32,275 nucleotides of DNA from NCBI GenBank assembly GCA_944389115.1, contig CALXLE010000065.1, positions 1 through 32,275 of the forward strand, read 5' to 3'. The notes below the pieces were generated by a model, which was not told where the DNA came from, searched no databases, and was given only the letters and a program-made list of their open reading frames with translations. Below are positions 7,528 to 18,070 of the stretch, one piece after another (position 1 is the stretch's first letter; every line of letters begins with the position of its first letter). Source of the stretch: an uncultured Spirochaetaceae bacterium (GTDB taxonomy: Bacteria > Spirochaetota > Spirochaetia > Sphaerochaetales > Sphaerochaetaceae). A program made the position numbers and the translations under genes.

Positions 7528-8739
7528 TTACTCAGCCTTCGATACGCTCTCGCAAAGGACAGATGCAAGAGAATCAAGCAGTTCCCTCTGATCATCCTTC
7601 AGGGATGACTTGATCGAGAGCTGAGGCTCAATAATCCGGATATTCTTCATTGATGCGAGGAGCTCAGTCATCTTCTTGCCAGAGGAAAGCGCCCATGTGC
7701 CATTCTCGATGACAGCGACGTCTCTGTTCTGGAATGCATGCGCCTTGAGATCAAGAAGAAGAGTCTCCATCTTTGGGAAGATCTCTGCATTGTATGTCGG
7801 AGATGCGAAGACGATTGTGCTGTACCTGAAGCACTCAGAGACAAGCACGGAGCAATCGGTCTTCGATGCATCATACATATGGATATTCCTTATGCCCTTC
7901 TCTGCGCACATCGATGCGAGAAGGTCGACAGCAGAGGCAGTATTGCCATAGATTGAGGAATATACGATGAGAAGCCCCTTATCCTCAGGCACATATGAAG
8001 CCCATGTCGTGTACTTATCGATGAAGTATCCAAGATTCTCCCTCCAGATCGGACCATGCAGAGGCAGAATCATCTTAATCGGGAGTGCAGATGCTTTCTT
8101 TAGCGTATTCATAACCTGCACGCCATACTTGCCAACGATGTTTATATAGTATCTTCTTGCATCATCAAGCCACTCTCTGTCGAAATCAACCTCATCAGCA
8201 TAGAGATTGCCTGCAAGAGCTCCGAATGTACCGAAAGCATCAGCGGAATAGAGATAGCCATCCGTAGTATCGAAGGACACCATGACCTCCGGCCAATGAA
8301 CCATAGGTGCGAATGCGAATACGAAGTTATGCTTCCCTGTCGATAAAGAGTCTCCATCTTTCACAACGTGTGCTCTTGCATCGATATCGAAGGAGTAGAA
8401 CTGCTTGATCATCTGGATTGTCTTCGCATTTCCAACAATTCTGATATCAGGATAGCGAATCACAAGCTCGGCAATTACGGAGCAATGATCAGGCTCCATA
8501 TGATTCACGATAAGGTAATCAAGGGCACGGCCTGAGAGAGCTGCTTCCACATTATCGAGGAACTCCCTTGAGACGGAATGGTCAACCGTATCAAGGAGAA
8601 CAGTCTTCTCATCCATAACAAGATAGGAATTGTAGCTTACACCGCGCTCAATCGGATAAATATTCTCGAAAAGAGCAAGACGTCTGTCGCTTGCACCAAC
8701 ATAATATACATCATCATTGATTTTTCTGAAGTTATGCAT
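7528..8739 (-). CDS. fprA: Flavodiiron protein (class A, FprA type)
   Basis: The cytoplasmic enzyme reduces O2 to water and/or NO to N2O, protecting anaerobes. The 403-aa protein has the usual two domains. The metallo-beta-lactamase-like domain (about 1-250) holds every di-iron ligand: His80, Glu82, Asp84 and His85 in NHMEPDH, His148 in VHWPE, Asp167 in SADAFG and His228 in LHGPIW. A flavodoxin domain (about 255-400) starts IVYSSIYGNTASA, the FMN phosphate loop, with SPTYNAEIFP and ENGTWA further on. The ATG has GGAG about seven bases upstream. There is no rubredoxin fusion, so electrons must come from a separate donor. It is transcribed toward a terminator and then mntP. Confidence 0.95.
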   Translation of the reverse strand: MHNFRKINDDVYYVGASDRRLALFENIYPIERGVSYNSYLVMDEKTVLLDTVDHSVSREFLDNVEAALSGRALDYLIVNHMEPDHCSVIAELVIRYPDIRIVGNAKTIQMIKQFYSFDIDARAHVVKDGDSLSTGKHNFVFAFAPMVHWPEVMVSFDTTDGYLYSADAFGTFGALAGNLYADEVDFDREWLDDARRYYINIVGKYGVQVMNTLKKASALPIKMILPLHGPIWRENLGYFIDKYTTWASYVPEDKGLLIVYSSIYGNTASAVDLLASMCAEKGIRNIHMYDASKTDCSVLVSECFRYSTIVFASPTYNAEIFPKMETLLLDLKAHAFQNRDVAVIENGTWALSSGKKMTELLASMKNIRIIEPQLSIKSSLKDDQRELLDSLASVLCESVSKAE

Positions 8740-8854
8740 GTTTATCTCCGAGAGAAGATTCTATATTAAGCAGGGAATTGCTACAAGAAGCCCATGAATG
8801 AAACAGCAGTTCATAAATAATCCAGAATATCTGAATTATTGCTTCGAATTTCAA

Positions 8855-8883
8855 TTGACATCCCTTATACTCTGCTGTAGCAT
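8855..8883 (+). promoter_or_regulatory. Strong-looking orphan promoter
   Basis: A perfect TTGACA (8855-8860) is separated by 17 bases from TAGCAT (8878-8883). It points away from fprA into the AT-rich gap and serves no visible protein gene. The next feature downstream is a terminator about 30 bases further on. Confidence 0.6.
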
Positions 8884-8889
8884 TATTTT

Positions 8890-8952
8890 TGCTAAGGGTA
8901 TCCTCCCACAAGCACCCCAGATACAGTGCAAGGTGTCTGGGGATTTATTTTT
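8890..8952 (+). ncRNA. Candidate small RNA of about 60 nt
   Basis: The start is estimated at seven bases after the -10 of the orphan promoter; the end is the T-run after the hairpin. The body would be an unpaired 5' part (about 25 nt, containing TCCTCCCA) followed by a terminator stem. TCCTCC is an anti-Shine-Dalgarno-like stretch, which would fit an RNA that pairs with ribosome sites. I recognise no known RNA family, and no ribosome site or reading frame is present. An alternative is a short terminated leader whose gene has been lost. Confidence 0.4.
8915..8952 (+). terminator. Terminator of the candidate small RNA
   Basis: The stem pairs CCCCAGATAC with GTGTCTGGGG (ten pairs, one G-U) around the loop AGTGCAAG, then ATTTATTTTT. 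This is a strong rho-independent signature on the plus strand. Confidence 0.8.
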
Positions 8953-9306
8953 CTATAAGTTTGATAAATATTTATTTATATACAATATGATTTATATAAT
9001 GTATATATGCATAATAGTATCTGAACAATACATATATTTATTTAAATATTACTTATATACAAATAGTTTTGATGTTAAATCAAATATTTTTAAGAAATTA
9101 TTACTAGATGTTTGATACTGAAAAAAAATAGTCATTAGATGAATCCAATTTATATCAAATATCTGATTGCCAGTTGAATAAAATAAGCAACCAGGAAGAA
9201 TGATATCACAACAGCGAGAAACATACATGTGTTTTACTTCGACAGTCGGTGCAGAGACTCTTCCAAATAGCGTAATGCAAGGGTATTATTCTTTCAGAGG
9301 GAATAT

Positions 9307-9840
9307 ATGAATGAAAACACGCTTGTAGCTTATTTCTCACGGAAAGGAATAAACTTCCGTGTCGGAAGTGTCGAGAAAGGCAGCGCCGAGATTCTCGCTG
9401 ACATGATTGCAGACCTGCTTGGTACATCTGAGTACGAGATCTGCACTGCTGAAGGCTACCCTGACGATCTTGAGGAATGCAACAGGAAAGCAAAGCAGGA
9501 ACATGATGAGAATGCACGGCCTGAGCTGCGCAATGCTCTCCCGGATATGAGCGGATTCAGCAATCTTGTGCTTGTATATCCGAACTGGTGGGGAGATCTG
9601 CCGATGGCAGTCTACACGTTCCTGGACGGGATAAGAACGGAAGGGCTGGATATATATCCTGTATGTACGCATGAGGATAATGGACTGGCCATGACGGAGA
9701 GAATCCTAAGCCAGACCTACCCAAAGGCAAGAATCATGAAGGGTGTTGCTATACGCGGAACATTGATACAGTGTGATCGGAACAGTACAAAAGATATTGT
9801 AATAAAATATCTATCTGATAGAGGTTTTATTAAGAAGTAA
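9307..9840 (+). CDS. Flavodoxin-family protein
   Basis: This 177-aa FMN-binding protein is likely an electron carrier or quinone/flavin reductase-like flavodoxin. Seen are the first strand TLVAYFSRKG, helix SAEILADMIADLLG, the YPNWWGDLPMAVYTFLDG segment typical of the flavodoxin_4 type (YPIWWGxxP loop over the flavin), and PVCTHEDNGLAMTERIL. The first phosphate-binding loop is unusual (SRKGINFRVGSVEKGSAE), longer than the standard TGNT version. The ATG has GAGGG five to six bases upstream and a TATTAT -10 before that. It is flanked on both sides by AT-rich DNA and looks monocistronic. It could feed electrons to the flavodiiron protein, but that is inference from proximity. Confidence 0.88.
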   Translation: MNENTLVAYFSRKGINFRVGSVEKGSAEILADMIADLLGTSEYEICTAEGYPDDLEECNRKAKQEHDENARPELRNALPDMSGFSNLVLVYPNWWGDLPMAVYTFLDGIRTEGLDIYPVCTHEDNGLAMTERILSQTYPKARIMKGVAIRGTLIQCDRNSTKDIVIKYLSDRGFIKK

Positions 9841-9964: not shown

Positions 9965-11392
9965 TCATACAGTTCCTCCATCGGATATCAATGGAAGTGA
10001 ATCAGAAGTCCTGTTGATAAGATAGTAAAGTGTATAGCAGTTCTGGGCCAGATTCATCTTCTCGGTAATAAGCTCTATATGATCCTGAAGCATATCCAGC
10101 TCATTCTGAAGGATACCGCTCCGTGATGAACTTCCTGCGTCGAACCGCATTTTCTCATTCTCTGCCTTTCTCTCACCATTCTCAAGCTTCAGCTCCTGAT
10201 ATTCGATCTTTGCAGCAGACAGCTCTGCACTTGTGAATGCATCGGTCACATTAGTCGTTAAGGCCTCTATGGCGCTATCCCTGTCGATATCATTTGATCT
10301 TATACGGCTCTCAGCGCGCTTCACATTATTGAGGATCTTGCCACCATCCCATAGCGTCGTCTTGAACGCGACAGTAACGTTCAGCCCCCAGTCATCCTCA
10401 CCTGTCCATCCTGTTTCAAAGAGGGGGAAACGTGTACCACCATAATTGAGCGAAAGCTGCAGACCGAGGTCAGGAATGCCATACATGGAGGCATCTGCAA
10501 TCTTCTTCGCATACTCCATTGCCTCTCCTGATTTATCCAGCATCTGAAGCGCAGGAGATGATGGAGATACAGCAAGTGCTACAAGAGAATCAAGCGGGCA
10601 TGAAAGAATCGCATCGAACTCCGATTCATCCACCTCATAGCTGATATCCTCTGCTTCAAGATCAGGAATGCCTGTAAGTACGCGAAGCCCATCGATGAGC
10701 ATTGCCTTCTGCTTTTCTATCTCCTTGAGAGATACATCAGCCTCACCCGCCTGGATCTTCGCATCCAGGACATCCTCCTCAAGTATCATGCCCTCTTCAC
10801 TTCCCTTCTCTGCAAGGGACACAAGCTCATCAGATGTAGTAATCACATCACCGAGAAGCTCCTCGATATCGGACAGATATACAAGAGCTGCAAGCCTTGC
10901 CTTCAGCTCTGTAACAAGCTGATTGCCGAGATCGTCACGCTGCATCTCCCGTGCGCTTTCCGCTGCCTTAAAGAGCTTTACAGAATTCGTTATCTTACCC
11001 CATGTCAGAAGCGGCTGCGTAATCGATATGGAGGCATTGTAGAAGGTATGCCCGATCCCATCGAAGAGCGTTATATCATAGCTCTGGGGAATCGGAGCCA
11101 TCCCCATCTGCATAAGGATATCATTGGTATTGATCGTGATATCATCGATGAATGGATTGGCCATGTACATGCCCATCAGCGTCAGCTCGATCGTCGGCTG
11201 ATACTCCGCCTCCGCATCCTTTGTATCCAGATGAGCCTGAACAACCTCTTCGTCAGCCTTCCTTATTTTCGTGTTGTTATTGTAGATGGACTGGATCAGA
11301 TCATCAATGCCGTATTTTTCCACATCCTCCGCAAATACTGGAGTTACAAGGAATAATACAATAGTAATGACCAATAACAAACGTTTCATCAA
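9965..11392 (-). CDS. TolC-family outer-membrane efflux channel
   Basis: A 475-aa outer-membrane factor that gives the RND pump an exit duct. Residues 1-22 are a signal peptide ending PVFA-ED. The rest is the OEP repeat pattern: two halves, each with long alpha-helical coiled coils (about 33-60 and 150-235, then 280-300 and 365-460) and amphipathic strands such as LFDGIGHTFYNASISITQPLLTWG and WGLNVTVAFKTTLWDGGK, the classic pair of beta-barrel strands followed by the G/N-rich turn. The start overlaps the lipoprotein stop by four bases (ATGA). It is the last gene of a four-gene efflux operon. Identity with E. coli TolC is low, so I give no symbol. Confidence 0.92.
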   Translation of the reverse strand: MMKRLLLVITIVLFLVTPVFAEDVEKYGIDDLIQSIYNNNTKIRKADEEVVQAHLDTKDAEAEYQPTIELTLMGMYMANPFIDDITINTNDILMQMGMAPIPQSYDITLFDGIGHTFYNASISITQPLLTWGKITNSVKLFKAAESAREMQRDDLGNQLVTELKARLAALVYLSDIEELLGDVITTSDELVSLAEKGSEEGMILEEDVLDAKIQAGEADVSLKEIEKQKAMLIDGLRVLTGIPDLEAEDISYEVDESEFDAILSCPLDSLVALAVSPSSPALQMLDKSGEAMEYAKKIADASMYGIPDLGLQLSLNYGGTRFPLFETGWTGEDDWGLNVTVAFKTTLWDGGKILNNVKRAESRIRSNDIDRDSAIEALTTNVTDAFTSAELSAAKIEYQELKLENGERKAENEKMRFDAGSSSRSGILQNELDMLQDHIELITEKMNLAQNCYTLYYLINRTSDSLPLISDGGTV

Positions 11393-12267
11393 ACTGTTTC
11401 CTCTGCTTTTACTGCCTTTTCAAGCTTAATTGAATAATCCATAGACTCATCGCTATTGCATGTTATCCTCCCATCACCTGTATACGCGGAATCAGGATTG
11501 AATCCATTTCCCACAGCAAAAATATAGAAATCATGACTTGAGGGGTTTGTTGCATCAGAAGTATTCCACATTACCTGCATGGTATACCGTCCATCTGACT
11601 GTGTTACGGAAACGCTGTGGTAATCATTAGGACTAAAGCTATTAGCATATGAATCAGGATTGATAGAGAAGAGACCGGATGCCTTTTTAAGGGCACCGTC
11701 ACGATCGTCCTTGCTATCAAAAGCATAGATCTTTATACCACCCAGATTAACAGGATTATTCTCTGAGTCATCAGTCACAAGTCCGGAGATTCTTGATTCT
11801 GCATTATAAATCTCCTCAAGATTTCCTATCCTGACGCTGTTTCCACCAAGCGATCCTGAACCTGACGTGACCCTGAAATCGGTTATGGCAGGTCTATATC
11901 CATCTTTGAGAACTAGGAAATAGAAAGGATGTATATCCTTATCTTCACCATATGCGGAGGATGATGTCTTCCAGACCAGAGGCATCGAACTGATTATGCC
12001 TTCGGTCGTATAGCTATGAATCACACTGCTGTTCTCCATCTCCTGATACGATCCGCGCGTATAGATATGCAAAGCAGCCTCATAATCTGCATCCCTGGCT
12101 TCCCTGGAATCATAAACAAGAATCTTTGCTCCATCTATGAGTTCCCCATCTGTTCCATTCACCTCACCTGTAAGCTCAACACTGATCAGGCTGCTGAATA
12201 CATACGAGCAGGATGCAAGAAGCATTACCATAAGCATTGCCGCAGCTACTGTGAATATCTTTCTCAT
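11389..12267 (-). CDS. Lipoprotein inside the RND efflux operon, duplicated beta domain
   Basis: The 292-aa protein has a signal peptide with lipobox LLASC (Cys20), so it is predicted to be a lipid-anchored envelope protein. The mature part contains two copies of one domain, about residues 30-130 and 155-265. Each has a G-x-V strand, a KI-x-V/A-x-DS motif with R-D after it, a helix with alanines, a strand ending in W-x-T-S, and FYFLVLKDGY or FYIFAVGNGF. The fold looks like a carboxypeptidase-regulatory/transthyretin-like sandwich, though I recognise no named family. It starts two bases after the RND stop with GGAGG nine bases upstream, and ends overlapping the TolC gene. This suggests an accessory part of the pump. 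Confidence 0.82.
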   Translation of the reverse strand: MRKIFTVAAAMLMVMLLASCSYVFSSLISVELTGEVNGTDGELIDGAKILVYDSREARDADYEAALHIYTRGSYQEMENSSVIHSYTTEGIISSMPLVWKTSSSAYGEDKDIHPFYFLVLKDGYRPAITDFRVTSGSGSLGGNSVRIGNLEEIYNAESRISGLVTDDSENNPVNLGGIKIYAFDSKDDRDGALKKASGLFSINPDSYANSFSPNDYHSVSVTQSDGRYTMQVMWNTSDATNPSSHDFYIFAVGNGFNPDSAYTGDGRITCNSDESMDYSIKLEKAVKAEETV

Positions 12268-12268
12268 A

Positions 12269-15200
12269 TTATCTGACCTCCAGTCCTTTTCTTCTCATGA
12301 ATTTTCTTATGCGGTGGCGCTCAAGCACGAAATAGAGTACCGGCATAAGGAAGAGTGTTATGAATGTACTGGTCGTAAGACCACCCATTATTACCTGTCC
12401 AAGCGGAGCATATACCTCGGCGCCCTCGCCTGTTGCGACAGCCATAGGAATGACTCCAAGAATCGTCGTCAGTGCACTCATCAATATGGGCCGCAGCCTA
12501 GATGATGTTCCAACCCTGACATTCTCCTTGAGATGCTTTATCTCATCATCGAATGACATGAATCCGATAAGAACCCTGTCCGCATCATCGACCTCTATAG
12601 AGGCAGCCTTTGCAGCATCAAGCCTATTCTGCTTCTCAAGCTGGTTGATATAATCGACCATGATGATTCCATTGTTCACGACCATGCCTGTCAGAGAGAT
12701 TATTCCCATTATCGATACCATATTCATCGATGAACCGAATACAGCAAGCGATACGACAACACCTATGACGCAGAATGGGACAGTAAGCATGATCATGAAT
12801 GGCTGGTCAAAGCGTTCATATATCAGGACGATGACCATATAAACGAGGAAGAGCGCTATGACAAGAGCTCTCATGATTGGTCCCATCGACTCATCGAGAA
12901 GCTCTCCTATGCCTCCTGTCTCTGTAGTAATGCCATTCTGCAGCGGATTCTCCCTGAGATACTCATTCACTCGCCTTGTCACACCAGAGGTCGACTCTCC
13001 TGTAAGCTGTGCGCTTACTGTGATAGTCAGAGCCCTGTCAGAGTGGTTTATCGAGGAGAGCGTCTGCTCTTCTGTAAGCTCTGCGATCTCGGAGAACGAG
13101 ACGGTGGAACCAGCCTGGGTCTTTATCTTAAGCGATGAAAGCAGGGATTCATCGACAGGGCGTTCCGAAGCATCAGATGTAAGCCGTATATCATAGCGCT
13201 CATCGCTATTCTGATCACGGAATGTGCCTGCATCGACACCATTGAAGAGGATTGCAGATGACATAGCTGCCTCATAGGCCGGAATGCCAAGCGATGACAT
13301 GTACTCATACGATGCATCGATGACCGATGTTCTCGCATCGAACGATGAGTTCACAGATGCAGAGATGACCTCAGGATCTGTCAGGAGGAAATTGCGTATG
13401 CGGTCAGCTTCCTGATACAGCTCCCTGCTGTCATTGCCTACCAGTGTCAGACCATAACCACCGCCACCGGAGATATATCCTACAAGGTAGTCGAAACCTC
13501 CGTTCTTCACATTGATCTTGGCATCAGGGATCTCTGCGGATAGCCTGTACTGCATATCCAGAATGATTTCATGTATATCCCTGTCTCTTTCCGCGACAGG
13601 TACAAGGACCGCATGAATGCCTCCCTGGTTCTTTGTTGCAGAGAATGAGAAGACCTCAATGGATTTGCCGGAATAGACAACATCGGTCTTCAGCTCAGGG
13701 ACGTTCTCTACGAGGATACGCTCAGCCTTCTGCATTACAGCCTCTGTCTCCTCTGCTGTGTAACCATATGGGAGCTCTATGCTGATATAGAAATCATTAT
13801 TATCGGTGGAAGGGATGAATGCGAATCCCAGCTGTGTCAGCGAGTATACCGTGACACCGAAGATCAGGAGCGCAATCACAATGACAAAAGGCGTATGCTC
13901 TATGCATGCCGCAAGCGCTCTGTTATAGAGCTTCTCGAGGTTGTTGATTCCCCGGACGAAGAGAAGCTCCTTCTTAGGCTTCCTGGAGCCATCCTCCTTC
14001 AGCAGCTTCTTCATCAGATACGGCACGAACACAATCGCAACAAGAAGCGATGAGAAGATTGCGAACATGAATGTCAGAGAGACATCATGGAGAATCTGGC
14101 CGACGATTCCGGAAAGCATAGCAAGCGGGATGAATACGACAACGGTCGTAAGGTTGGATCCTATAACCGATTTATCGACTATTCCCGTTCCGTGGTAGAT
14201 TGACTGCGTTACGCTATACAGTCCTTTTCCATCCTTCTCCTGCTGATAGAATCGATATACCTGATCAAGGACAACAATCGAGGCATCGACTATAGAACCA
14301 AGCGCGACTACTATGCCCGACATAGACATAAGGTTCACGGAAATACCTGCAACCTTCATGACGATAAAAGTAAAGAAGCATGAAAGCGGTATCGAAAGCC
14401 CTATGATGAATGTCGCACGGAGATCATTGAGGAAAACGAAGATCACAAGAATTGCTATTATGACTCCCATGACTCCAGATTCAATGACATTCTTCAGCGA
14501 TGATGTGACTATCTGCGAATCATCACTGATCATGCTGAAATGAAGAGCTCCATTGGTCTCCCGCTCTGCATCGCTGAGAACCGACTTGATTGAATCTGTT
14601 ATCTGGACAGTATTGCCATCAGCCCTCTTGGAGACTTCGACGACAACGACATCCTTACCCATGGAAGTGACAGAGTAATCATCGCCGTCATATACCAGAT
14701 TGACATCCGCAACATCGGAAAGGTGGATTATCGTGCCATCATCAGAAGCCCCGACAGGAAGAGATCTTATCTCTTCGATATCGGAAAAGGATCCATCGAA
14801 TCTCAGGTCCACGCTCCTTCCACCTGCTTCGGATGTGCCAAGAGGCATCGATACATTCGAATATGATAAGAGCTGGTATACAGTCAAAGGCGAGATGCCC
14901 TTTGAGTCGAGATCGTCGAGACGAAGCTTTACATCGATCTCAGGATAAACACCTCCTGAAACAGCTATCGAGGAAACACCTGAGATCTGGGTAAGCCTGG
15001 GCTTCAGCTCATTCTCTATGTAGTTTGTCACAGCACCGAGATCAGAGCCGCCTTCGACGGTGAATGTCGCGATAGGAAGCATTGTTGCTCCTCCGACAAG
15101 GGCTGTAGGCTCCCCCTGCAGCCCCGCCGGAAGCTGATCGGACATCTCGGATATCCTGTTCCTTACTTCATCAAGCTGATCATAGACATCGACACCATCA

Positions 15201-15487
15201 CTGAATGTGATCGTGATCATCGCAGCGGAGTTCATCGCCTGCGAATCCATGCCCCTGAAATCCGGAAGCGTAACGAAATTATCCTCCATTACATCTATAA
15301 CCGTCTTCTCGATATCCTCAGCGGATGCCCCGGGGTATATCGCGACAACGAATATCTGCGGGAGGTTCATATCAGGGATGAATTCAAGATTCATCGATGA
15401 GACAGAGAAGATACCGAAGAGCGCCAAGGCGATGAGTATCATCGTCAGGACGGGTGTATGTCTTACTGAGAACTTTGAGACATTCAT
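12269..15487 (-). CDS. RND (HAE1-type) multidrug efflux transporter
   Basis: The inner-membrane proton/drug antiporter is full length (1072 aa) with twelve helices and two large periplasmic loops. It begins MNVSKFSVRHTPVLTMILIA and shows the family segments FIPDMNLPQIFVVAIYPGASAEDIE, PVGASDDGTIIHLSDVA and LPYGYTAEETEAVM. In helix 4 the proton-relay site reads GSIVDASIVVLDQ: the first Asp (401, AcrB Asp407 equivalent) is kept and the second is Ala. In helix 10 the AcrB Lys position lies in GMVVNNGIIMVDY, the form common in non-AcrB HAE1 pumps. Its ATG overlaps the adaptor stop. Substrates cannot be predicted, but drugs, bile salts or lipids are plausible. Confidence 0.95.
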   Translation of the reverse strand: MNVSKFSVRHTPVLTMILIALALFGIFSVSSMNLEFIPDMNLPQIFVVAIYPGASAEDIEKTVIDVMEDNFVTLPDFRGMDSQAMNSAAMITITFSDGVDVYDQLDEVRNRISEMSDQLPAGLQGEPTALVGGATMLPIATFTVEGGSDLGAVTNYIENELKPRLTQISGVSSIAVSGGVYPEIDVKLRLDDLDSKGISPLTVYQLLSYSNVSMPLGTSEAGGRSVDLRFDGSFSDIEEIRSLPVGASDDGTIIHLSDVADVNLVYDGDDYSVTSMGKDVVVVEVSKRADGNTVQITDSIKSVLSDAERETNGALHFSMISDDSQIVTSSLKNVIESGVMGVIIAILVIFVFLNDLRATFIIGLSIPLSCFFTFIVMKVAGISVNLMSMSGIVVALGSIVDASIVVLDQVYRFYQQEKDGKGLYSVTQSIYHGTGIVDKSVIGSNLTTVVVFIPLAMLSGIVGQILHDVSLTFMFAIFSSLLVAIVFVPYLMKKLLKEDGSRKPKKELLFVRGINNLEKLYNRALAACIEHTPFVIVIALLIFGVTVYSLTQLGFAFIPSTDNNDFYISIELPYGYTAEETEAVMQKAERILVENVPELKTDVVYSGKSIEVFSFSATKNQGGIHAVLVPVAERDRDIHEIILDMQYRLSAEIPDAKINVKNGGFDYLVGYISGGGGYGLTLVGNDSRELYQEADRIRNFLLTDPEVISASVNSSFDARTSVIDASYEYMSSLGIPAYEAAMSSAILFNGVDAGTFRDQNSDERYDIRLTSDASERPVDESLLSSLKIKTQAGSTVSFSEIAELTEEQTLSSINHSDRALTITVSAQLTGESTSGVTRRVNEYLRENPLQNGITTETGGIGELLDESMGPIMRALVIALFLVYMVIVLIYERFDQPFMIMLTVPFCVIGVVVSLAVFGSSMNMVSIMGIISLTGMVVNNGIIMVDYINQLEKQNRLDAAKAASIEVDDADRVLIGFMSFDDEIKHLKENVRVGTSSRLRPILMSALTTILGVIPMAVATGEGAEVYAPLGQVIMGGLTTSTFITLFLMPVLYFVLERHRIRKFMRRKGLEVR

Positions 15488-16536
15488 ACATCATCTCCGG
15501 AAACAACTGTCACCTTCTCTCCGGAGAGGAGGCTGTTCTGTCCGCGGATGATGAACTGCGTATCGCTATATCCATCAGGTATCTGGAAATACGACGAATC
15601 CGATGCCATGCGGTCAAATACGATGCTTTCGGCTGTATCACCATTGAGCATGTAGACAGCGCCCTCTGCGGTCCTAGCTGTTACAGGTAGTGTGCTGCAC
15701 TCAATACTTTCGTAGACAATATGGACCTTTATGAACATTCCAGGAGTGAATCCCTCTGGATTGGAAAGGGATGCCTTGACCTTGAATGTCTTGGAAGTCG
15801 GATCTATGAATGGAGAGACAGAGACAACAGAGGCCGCGGAGACAGCTCCGCCCGGACTTGATATCGTTATCTTCAGACTATCGGGATCGGAGCTTATTCT
15901 TCCGAAATACTGCTCCCCGACGCTGATATTCACGACAAGGTCCGAAAGATCGGCAATCACTGCAAGAGGCTGCTCGGAGGATGCAATAGAGCCAGCAGCG
16001 GATGGAGCCATCAGCACGGTACCTGATACAGGAGATGTAACATCGGCATAGGAAAGCTGCAGCTCTGCAAGCTCCAGCTGGGCCTTCGCTGCGTCATGCT
16101 GTGCCTTGACCATCTCATAGTCCTGCTTTGTGGCAGCTCCCGATTCATACAGTGGCTCGGTCCTCTTCAGGGCACTCTCCACAGCTGTGAACTGGGCCTC
16201 TGCCTGGGCAAGCTGCAGCTCATATGGCCGCTTATCGATGACAGCGATCACATCATCCTTGCTGACAGCCATCCCCGCCTCGATATTGTATTTCTCGATG
16301 GTCCCCTGAACAAATGGCACGACAGGAATCATAGCTGATGCCTCTATATACCCCGTCGTATCGATTGCGCTGTCGATTGTCCTTATCTCCGGCTTTGCCA
16401 CCTCAACCGGCTTAGGCGGAGCGGTATAGACAACAGCTTCACGTGATGAGAAGAAAACAACAAGTCCTGCTGTCAGTACAGCGAAGACAAGAAGCATGAT
16501 GATATATCTCAGAATAATGGTCTTACTGCCCTTCAT
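15484..16536 (-). CDS. RND periplasmic adaptor (membrane fusion protein)
   Basis: The 350-aa adaptor bridges the RND pump and the TolC-like channel. Residues 8-30 form an N-terminal transmembrane anchor with no lipobox. Then come the first lipoyl half (VVPFVQGTIEKYNIEAGMAVSKDDVIAVID), an alpha hairpin of about 70 residues rich in A, E, Q and L, the second lipoyl half (YADVTSPVSGTVLMAPSAAGS), and beta-barrel and membrane-proximal domains (VVSVSPFIDPTSKTFKVKASL, GFTPGMFIKVHI). I rejected a 99-residue upstream extension because it covers the divergent promoter region. The chosen ATG has AGG eight bases upstream. It is first in the order adaptor, pump, lipoprotein, channel, all coupled by overlaps or short gaps. 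Confidence 0.93.
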   Translation of the reverse strand: MKGSKTIILRYIIMLLVFAVLTAGLVVFFSSREAVVYTAPPKPVEVAKPEIRTIDSAIDTTGYIEASAMIPVVPFVQGTIEKYNIEAGMAVSKDDVIAVIDKRPYELQLAQAEAQFTAVESALKRTEPLYESGAATKQDYEMVKAQHDAAKAQLELAELQLSYADVTSPVSGTVLMAPSAAGSIASSEQPLAVIADLSDLVVNISVGEQYFGRISSDPDSLKITISSPGGAVSAASVVSVSPFIDPTSKTFKVKASLSNPEGFTPGMFIKVHIVYESIECSTLPVTARTAEGAVYMLNGDTAESIVFDRMASDSSYFQIPDGYSDTQFIIRGQNSLLSGEKVTVVSGDDV

Positions 16537-16591
16537 AATCCTTACCTGATTTGAATAGTAATAAGAAGGGATACCTGTCTGCACAACAAAA

Positions 16592-16610
16592 ATACGACAT
16601 ATTGTCGGAT
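16592..16610. promoter_or_regulatory. Palindromic operator candidate before the efflux operon
   Basis: The 19-base element ATACGACATATTGTCGGAT has dyad symmetry: AT-x-CGACA, three central bases, TGTCG-x-AT. It lies about 55 bases upstream of the adaptor start in the divergent region shared with the aldehyde dehydrogenase. Its size and shape fit a TetR- or MarR-type operator, but no regulator gene lies nearby. Confidence 0.4.
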
Positions 16611-16663
16611 TGTCTGTGAAGCTATTATGAAGATTTCTTTTCCTGACAGTTTTTCTTGAAGTG

Positions 16664-16692
16664 TAGATATTTTTATCGAGTAGTGATAACAT
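16664..16692 (+). promoter_or_regulatory. Promoter of the aldehyde dehydrogenase operon
   Basis: TAGATA (16664-16669) and TAACAT (16687-16692) are 17 bases apart, with an extended TGA directly before the -10. Only seven bases separate the -10 from the ATG, and no Shine-Dalgarno is present. Confidence 0.45.
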
Positions 16693-16699
16693 CGCCGCC

Positions 16700-18070
16700 A
16701 TGGACCAGTACAGCACAATGCTAGCAAAGCAGAGGGAATATTTCAGAAGCGGGAAAACGCTCCCATATGAGGAGAGAAAGAGGAATCTCGGGAAGCTGAA
16801 GGATGCGCTCAGAAAGCATGAAAGCGAGATCATCGCAGCTCTTCACGAGGATCTTGGGAAAAGCCCATTCGAGGCATATGCCACTGAAATCGGAATCGTA
16901 TACGGCGAGATCGGGTATCTGATGAAGAACCTCAGAAAGCTTATGGGGAAGCACAGGGTGCCCTCCCCTATAACGATCTTCAAGGCAAGCTCATATACCG
17001 TTTCGGAGCCCCTGGGCAACACACTCATCCTTTCTCCCTGGAATTATCCACTGCAGCTGACGATGGTTCCGCTTGCAGGAGCAATAGCCGGAGGCAATAC
17101 GGCAATCGTCAAGCCTTCCAGATACTCTGCTGCGACTTCAGCACTGATGAAGAAGATAATAGAGGAGGCATTTCCCTCTGAATACATAGCAGTATTCGAG
17201 GGCGGCCATGAGACGAATACTGCGCTTCTCAGCCTGAGATATGATTTCGTCTTCTTCACAGGTTCTCCGAATGTAGGAAGGATAGTAGCGGAGAAATGTG
17301 CTCCCAATCTCACTCCTTGCGTGCTGGAGCTCGGAGGAAAGAGCCCTGTTATCATAGATGGCACTGTGGATATGAAGCTCGTATCACGCCGCCTAGCATG
17401 GGGAAAGCTCCTGAATGCAGGTCAGACATGCGTTGCACCGGACTATGTCCTTGTCAAGGAAGGCTTCCAGGACAGGCTTATAGAAGAGCTTGGAAAACGG
17501 TTCAGGGAGATGTTCTCCGATAACCCACTTGCCGCAGAGGAATTCCCGAAGATCATAAATGCAAAGCATTTCGAGAGAATCAAAGGTCTGATCGAAGGCT
17601 CTGCAACAGCTATCGGCGGACATTCTGACGAGAAGACGATGAGGATTGAGCCTACGGTGCTCTACCCCGTCAAGGATACCGATCCTGTGATGCAGGAAGA
17701 GATCTTCGGACCGGTGCTGCCGATACTCACATACAATTCTCTGGATGAGGCAATAGATTTCATAAGGAACAGGGAGAAACCTCTTGCCCTCTACATTTTC
17801 AGCAATGACCGTTCCTCGATTGAGCGCGTTCACAGCCTTGTCTCATTTGGAGGCGGATGCATAAACGATACGGTCATACATCTCACGAATCCGCGAATCC
17901 CATTCGGAGGCGTTGGGAACTCAGGCATGGGTTCATACCACGGAGATGAGAGTTTCAGGGTATTCACCCATAGAAAATCGATAATAAAAGAAGCAACATG
18001 GATAGATCTTCCTATACGCTTTGCCCCATTTAAGGATAAAATCAAGCTTGTGAGGCTGTTGATGCGATGA
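16700..18070 (+). CDS. Aldehyde dehydrogenase, ALDH3-like
   Basis: The 456-aa NAD(P)-dependent enzyme oxidises aldehydes to acids. The short, ALDH3/YwdH-like layout lacks the N-terminal extension of other ALDHs. Catalytic residues are present: Asn115 in SPWNYPLQL, Glu210 in LELGGKSP and Cys244 in NAGQTCVAPDYVL. FFTGSPNVGR is the cofactor loop, EEIFGPVLPI the late signature and NPRIPFGGVGNSGMGSYHG the C-terminal motif. The start is the ATG at the extended -10 spacing (see promoter); a second ATG six codons in also lacks a ribosome site. Its stop overlaps the CLC gene by four bases. A membrane-lipid aldehyde substrate is typical for ALDH3 but not provable here. Confidence 0.92.
   Translation: MDQYSTMLAKQREYFRSGKTLPYEERKRNLGKLKDALRKHESEIIAALHEDLGKSPFEAYATEIGIVYGEIGYLMKNLRKLMGKHRVPSPITIFKASSYTVSEPLGNTLILSPWNYPLQLTMVPLAGAIAGGNTAIVKPSRYSAATSALMKKIIEEAFPSEYIAVFEGGHETNTALLSLRYDFVFFTGSPNVGRIVAEKCAPNLTPCVLELGGKSPVIIDGTVDMKLVSRRLAWGKLLNAGQTCVAPDYVLVKEGFQDRLIEELGKRFREMFSDNPLAAEEFPKIINAKHFERIKGLIEGSATAIGGHSDEKTMRIEPTVLYPVKDTDPVMQEEIFGPVLPILTYNSLDEAIDFIRNREKPLALYIFSNDRSSIERVHSLVSFGGGCINDTVIHLTNPRIPFGGVGNSGMGSYHGDESFRVFTHRKSIIKEATWIDLPIRFAPFKDKIKLVRLLMR

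Follow-up and report, generated by a model that had tools for sequence, protein, structure and literature searches.

The window, by which we mean the whole stretch of 32,275 nucleotides analysed here, belongs to the genome of an uncultured spirochaete (G000; 2.47 Mb in 167 contigs). The part of interest lies between two divergently oriented genes and comprises the following features, where "the four genomes" are those that carry the locus.

7528 to 8739, reverse strand: gene for an fprA-type flavodiiron protein, the divergent neighbour (Pfam ODP, 65.1 bits against a cut-off of 27.2)
8855 to 8860, forward strand: -35 box TTGACA of the small-RNA promoter, identical in 4/4 genomes
8878 to 8883, forward strand: -10 box TAGCAT (TAATCT, TATTCT and TATTCT in the relatives)
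8891 to 8950, forward strand: predicted small RNA of about 60 nt, with a 56-base block near-invariant in the four genomes
8891 to 8913, forward strand: 5' hairpin of the predicted fold, GCU-AA-GGG-UAUCCU-CCC-ACA-AGC, with UAUCCU in the loop
8915 to 8942, forward strand: ten-pair terminator hairpin with the loop AGUGCAAG at 8925-8932, identical at 8/8 positions in the four genomes
8943 to 8952, forward strand: T-rich terminator tail ATTTATTTTT, T-rich in 4/4 genomes
9261 to 9289, forward strand: promoter-like element TTCCAA-17-TATTAT assigned to the flavodoxin gene itself, conserved in the four genomes
9307 to 9840, forward strand: flavodoxin gene, the downstream neighbour on the same strand (Pfam Flavodoxin_4)

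The fprA product also matched NCBIfam flavorubredoxin models, at scores below their cut-offs. Pfam Flavodoxin_4 was found in the window and in the related genomes G062 and G025, and the orthologue beside the small RNA of G032 shows 97% identity. The stretch from the small RNA to the flavodoxin gene (8952-9306 in the window) is very AT-rich (G+C of 17-34% across the four genomes) and differs widely in length. Positions 9965-16833 of the reverse strand hold an outer-membrane efflux gene (Pfam OEP) and, after it on that strand, several large frames, a layout that is perhaps that of an RND-type efflux operon.

An earlier note on this DNA had described an orphan promoter and terminator, and its motifs were found again. 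The promoter TTGACA-17-TAGCAT lies at 8855-8883 and presents 10/12 consensus matches around its 17-base spacer. The ten-pair hairpin with a T-run, announced for about 30 bases downstream, has its stem 31 bases after the end of TAGCAT; its arms CCCCAGATAC and GTGTCTGGGG occupy 8915-8924 and 8933-8942 and enclose an 8-base loop that reads AGTGCAAG in DNA. The sequence TCCTCCC, which the predicted 5' part was said to contain, was located at 8901-8907, inside the 5' hairpin. The first base of the conserved block, the G at 8891, follows the -10 box at the 7-base distance expected of a start site, and we therefore infer that the small RNA starts there. The 23-nt 5' hairpin is predicted to fold at -6.7 kcal/mol by itself, and this fold is common to 4/4 genomes; its pairs are invariant, which makes a covariation test impossible there. 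The region 8885-8952 as a whole folds at -25.4 kcal/mol (z of -3.9 relative to shuffles). In a 1-kb scan, we found five promoter-like sites against 3.9 expected in shuffles and two terminator-like sites against 0.6 expected. The promoter-like sites are about as frequent as chance would give and the terminator-like sites somewhat enriched, so that the motifs by themselves are weak evidence.

The locus was identified in 4 of the 48 genomes of the genus, the window's own included (G000, G025, G032, and G062), always in the same position between the divergent fprA and flavodoxin genes (4/4), and the small RNA is single-copy in G000 at E-values up to 1. The 567-base intergenic region was used as a DNA query against 60 genomes, own included, and matched 50 of them at E up to 1; these matches were mostly short among those listed, and, apart from G000 itself, the feature was covered with E below 1e-20 in G032 and G025 alone among the matches listed. 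The locus of G062 was added by an 18-base pattern search. With up to three mismatches this pattern had a match in 35 of the 48 genomes, exact in four, and the 30 pattern-match loci read in context presented promoter and hairpin in the four genomes only. The earlier note had suggested a search for homologous hairpins beside fprA in related genomes, and the covariance and pattern searches indeed recovered them in G025, G032, and G062. The covariance model R1, built from the four small-RNA sequences, scored 93.8-95 bits in the four genomes and did not exceed 22.4 bits in the remainder of the 48 genomes of the genus, where we judged the weak matches to be due to chance; in the order as a whole (139 genomes), the highest score apart from the four was 27.3 bits. 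The four sequences of R1 match by construction, and the weight of this result lies in the absence of intermediates and in the pattern of change. The count of four in 48 is a minimum, since many genomes are incomplete and large searches were more strictly filtered. The block was absent from the 620 bases upstream of six more distant fprA relatives (L020-L025). Viral contigs contained no exact match to the 18-base pattern and thus gave no sign of a connection to phages.

The four locus-bearing genomes are those of related gut spirochaetes, and the block has been kept while the surrounding DNA changed. Across all pairs of the four genomes, 53-56 of the 56 positions of the transcript block are identical; the loops of the two hairpins are constant in the four genomes, as is every block position except three. 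Upstream of the block, the -35 box is identical at 6/6 positions in every pair and the -10 box at 3-6/6. The 17-base spacer of the promoter is fixed in length with 3-11/17 identical letters in pairs, and the discriminator is likewise fixed at 7 bases with 3-5/7 identical. The fourfold-degenerate sites of fprA, in contrast, are 34.9-65.9% identical in the same four genomes. Based on these comparisons, the contrast between the block and the fourfold sites constitutes the main argument for a small-RNA gene. One pair of the terminator stem is A-U in three genomes and G-C in G062, and 142 of 500 shuffles reached the observed level of stem covariation. With four sequences only, such a control cannot reach significance, and we consider the compensatory pair a supporting detail rather than proof. 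Loss of the hairpin and promoter in close relatives had been posed as an outcome that would speak against the unit; both are kept in 4/4 locus-bearing genomes. We conclude that the promoter-plus-terminator unit observed earlier is real, and it is its conservation in three other genomes that is decisive.

The same observation had included the statement that no open frame is present, which proved incorrect: an ATG frame of 105 codons (8798-9115, forward strand) crosses the feature in the window. This frame has no Pfam match. Its equivalent comprises 35 codons from a TTG start in G032 and 56 codons from a TTG start in G062, which also has an ATG 6 bases before the block, and it lacks a start codon in G025. 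Its starts and stops fall at unconserved places, which indicates that the 105-codon frame is not a conserved gene. We also considered whether the block itself could encode a tiny protein. Of its three frames, frames 0 and 1 have no stop codon across the block in 4/4 genomes, and an upstream start codon is available in three of the four genomes both for frame 0 and, as a TTG two bases before the block, for frame 1. Yet frame 0 is startless in G025 and frame 1 in G032, and all of the upstream starts precede the inferred transcript start. The stops are scattered as well, at 222 (window), 69 (G032), 78 (G025), and 132 (G062) bases after the first base of the block in frame 0 and at 97, 79, 238, and 61 bases in frame 1. 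In addition, two of the three differences within the block would alter the frame-0 protein. In none of the frames are both the start and the stop conserved among the four genomes, as is expected of a non-coding sequence, and a protein-coding role is in our view highly improbable.

Other explanations of the block were weighed against the same evidence. A cis-acting leader of the flavodoxin gene, i.e., a terminator or attenuator controlling read-through, would fit the position of the block upstream of flavodoxin on the same strand in 4/4 genomes. However, the flavodoxin ATG lies 416, 416, 1166, and 1117 bases beyond the first base of the block, with an AT-rich filling in between that is largely dissimilar, and the flavodoxin gene possesses its own promoter-like element just before its start (TTCCAA-17-TAT[TC]AT, at an equal distance from the ATG in 4/4 genomes). 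The variable distance and the separate element suggest that the small RNA is a unit of its own, and the leader explanation is very unlikely. The very high identity of a sharply bounded stretch could also point to a DNA-level element, or to a recently spread mobile or repeat sequence that resembles a promoter and a terminator. This is equally hard to credit: the sequence is single-copy in G000, its syntenic place is equal in the four genomes, its terminator stem contains a compensatory change, and its promoter boxes are kept while the letters between them drift, which recent spread would not produce. Finally, the near-expected number of promoter-like matches in this AT-rich stretch would be compatible with a functionless chance coincidence of promoter-like and terminator-like sequences, but the block identity relative to that of the fprA fourfold sites contradicts this, and we regard it as close to impossible.

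The evidence therefore supports an independent non-coding RNA gene at 8891-8950, about 60 nt long and presumably transcribed, in this uncultured spirochaete. The promoter and terminator are fixed, the block is conserved, the crossing frame is unconserved, and flavodoxin has a separate promoter-like element; together, these features indicate independence. The reading of the unit as a stand-alone RNA gene of about 60 nt, proposed before, is borne out by the boxes, spacings, block, and terminator kept in four genomes. At the sequence level the unit presents its own promoter and its own terminator in the four genomes, as is characteristic of trans-encoded small RNAs, and it probably regulates other genes.

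We consider it somewhat more probable than its opposite that this RNA, with a sigma-70-type promoter and an intrinsic terminator of its own, is an antisense repressor acting in trans. The loop UAUCCU and the adjoining CCC would pair with ribosome-binding sites resembling GGGAGGAUA, and this pairing might block the translation of a small set of mRNAs, by analogy with RsaE/RoxS, C-rich small RNAs of Gram-positive bacteria. The locus lies between two redox flavoprotein genes, and a response to oxygen, nitric oxide, or iron is a reasonable guess. The segment UAUCCUCC complements GGAGGATA, which is frequent at ribosome sites of the genome, and this complementarity makes antisense repression the likeliest mechanism. 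GGAGGATA followed by 1-9 bases and ATG was found 62 times in G000 against 12 times for the reversed control (54 vs 17 in G025, 59 vs 15 in G032, and 57 vs 13 in G062). An anti-Shine-Dalgarno seed is plausible on these grounds, and such a seed would offer little specificity. The 14-base complement, allowing up to two mismatches, was found at 10, 11, 12, and 15 places in G000, G025, G032, and G062, counts that include the small-RNA locus itself, against 3, 6, 6, and 5 places for its reversed control. No ribosome site shared by the four genomes was identified in the 30 of 48 complement places that were read. The best recurring site, ATGGGAGGATATCC (G000, G025, and G032), and the second, CTGGGAGGATATCC (G000 and G032), are followed by no frame longer than 14 codons and were rejected as targets. 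The idea, put forward in the earlier note, that TCCTCCC pairs in trans with Shine-Dalgarno sequences is thus plausible and fits the ribosome sites of the genome but finds no conserved target among the places read.

Predicted duplexes gave a similarly mixed picture. RNAduplex was run against 28 start regions of the window and the fprA and flavodoxin starts of the relatives. It yielded -17.3 (G025), -16.9 (G062), -12.8 (G032), and -10.1 (G000) for the flavodoxin start and poor values of -7.9 to -9.0 for the fprA start; several unrelated starts of the window pair better than flavodoxin of G000, the best at -18.3. We claim no target from these start regions, from the GGAGGATA sites listed, or from the complement places read. 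Two further observations sit uneasily with antisense action. In the predicted fold, the CCC of the C-rich segment is engaged in base pairs, and constancy extends beyond the putative seed to nearly the whole molecule, more than simple antisense action would call for.

This constraint on the whole molecule makes protein binding the main rival. Rather than pairing as an antisense RNA, the small RNA might bind a protein, or a protein and an mRNA, through its two conserved loops, for instance as a sponge, an RNA-polymerase ligand, or a ribosome ligand. Such a role is favoured by the constancy of both loops and of nearly every block position, as well as by the terminator loop of a second RNA described below (RNA B), which is constant while its stem covaries and so suggests that the loop is recognised by something. 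Against it, neither a protein partner nor a known protein-binding motif was identified, the window has no Rfam family at gathering score, and the molecule is much shorter than 6S RNA. We consider protein binding, whichever of these forms it might take, an alternative of real but clearly minor probability next to antisense repression.

The best weak matches of R1 outside the genus share the terminator loop AGTGCAAG, and two of the genomes concerned, G101 and G077, led to RNA B, a conserved RNA preceded by a promoter-like sequence in other genera of the order, roughly 100-175 nt long as judged from its inferred start (loci L297-L322, e.g., L310:1501-1602 on the reverse strand and L317:1435-1536 on the forward strand). 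A hairpin model that includes two of these weak extra-genus matches (R2) had matches with E of 1e-5 or better in 30 of the 139 genomes, of which 26 belong to other genera. With the limit relaxed to E of 0.5, some match to R2 was present in 82 of the 139 genomes, most of the remainder being weak. In most sequences, RNA B consists of a C-rich hairpin CCCCCUCA...UGAGG, then a CCGC...GCGG hairpin, then the terminator. The terminator loop contains GUGCAAG in 16 and UGCAAG in all of the 17 aligned sequences, and the terminator stem varies in a compensatory manner: of the 16 pairs predicted from the alignment, 7 show changes on both sides. We built a third model (R3) from these 17 RNA B sequences, none of which comes from the window's genus. 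At E of 0.01 or better across the order, it identified 32 of 139 genomes in 6 of 22 genera, model sequences included, and no genome of the window's genus; most genomes bearing RNA B present one strong match. A search of 14 RNA B loci against Rfam gave no match with an E-value of 1 or lower. Among the neighbours of RNA B are a SIMPL gene, located upstream in 7 of 11 loci with frames listed, and a NUDIX gene, confirmed by Pfam in 5/5 cases tested. Downstream of RNA B in two g36 genomes (G101 and G104) lies a pyridine nucleotide-disulphide oxidoreductase; that of G104 matched NirB best and the NADH:flavorubredoxin reductase NorW lower, below cut-offs among the models listed.

The two RNAs share several properties: a promoter-like sequence of their own, a C-rich hairpin (in most RNA B sequences), and the GUGCAAG terminator loop (again in most), which all four small RNAs contain within AGUGCAAG. 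R3 scored the four small RNAs at 19-26 bits, mostly through the terminator, and the next score in 31 chosen sources was 12.9. Among 354 distinct terminator-like hairpins, a set biased by how the sequences were fetched, GTGCAAG occurred in 13, all of which we take to belong to the small RNA or RNA B, although not every one was traced. RNA B differs, however, in its length, its 5' part, and its neighbours: its two 5' hairpins are absent from the small RNA, which possesses a single, different hairpin of 23 nt instead. These likenesses are suggestive of common descent, which we nonetheless hold to be doubtful. Equally tentative is the broader idea that both would belong to one ancient clan of small RNAs of the order, in which a terminator with a constant GUGCAAG loop would serve as recognition site, the C-rich 5' part would have been exchanged from lineage to lineage, and the RNAs would be tied to flavoenzymes that detoxify oxygen or nitric oxide (fprA and flavodoxin here, and the oxidoreductase beside RNA B in the two g36 genomes).

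If the loop is a recognition element shared with RNA B, a presumed mere stop signal would gain a second role across the order. The small RNA is tiny, strongly conserved, and sharply delimited, which makes it easy to test. The titles and openings of abstracts found in literature searches offered little about small RNAs in these spirochaetes and contained no description of the small RNA or of RNA B.

We then compared the small RNA to known families. The whole window had no Rfam match at gathering score and no tRNA or tmRNA, and positions 8880-8960 gave six Rfam matches at E up to 10, all far below gathering, RsaE not being among them. The model of NsiR1 (RF02399, nitrogen stress-induced RNA 1) has 60 positions and a common layout with the small RNA, namely a short 5' part followed by a CCCC...GGGG hairpin and a U-tail. 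The small RNA scores 12.9 bits against this model, whose gathering score is 39, and thus falls outside the family; the likeness appears to be a resemblance of terminators. The small RNAs of Borrelia burgdorferi (PMC5216591) can be set beside it as small RNAs of a spirochaete. RsaE/RoxS of Staphylococcus and Bacillus resembles it as a regulatory RNA with a C-rich sequence complementary to Shine-Dalgarno sequences. RoxS is reported to be induced by nitric oxide, to regulate redox genes, to bind Shine-Dalgarno sequences, and to use C-rich regions (PMC5419742), and RsaE has been proposed to act through its UCCC motif (PMC9266662). Compared with RsaE/RoxS, the small RNA described here is about 60 nt long, has one C-rich segment before its terminator, and belongs to a different phylum. 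We regard it as a new RNA within an established class of small RNAs, which is not a member of RsaE/RoxS by the Rfam test and is perhaps similar to it in action.
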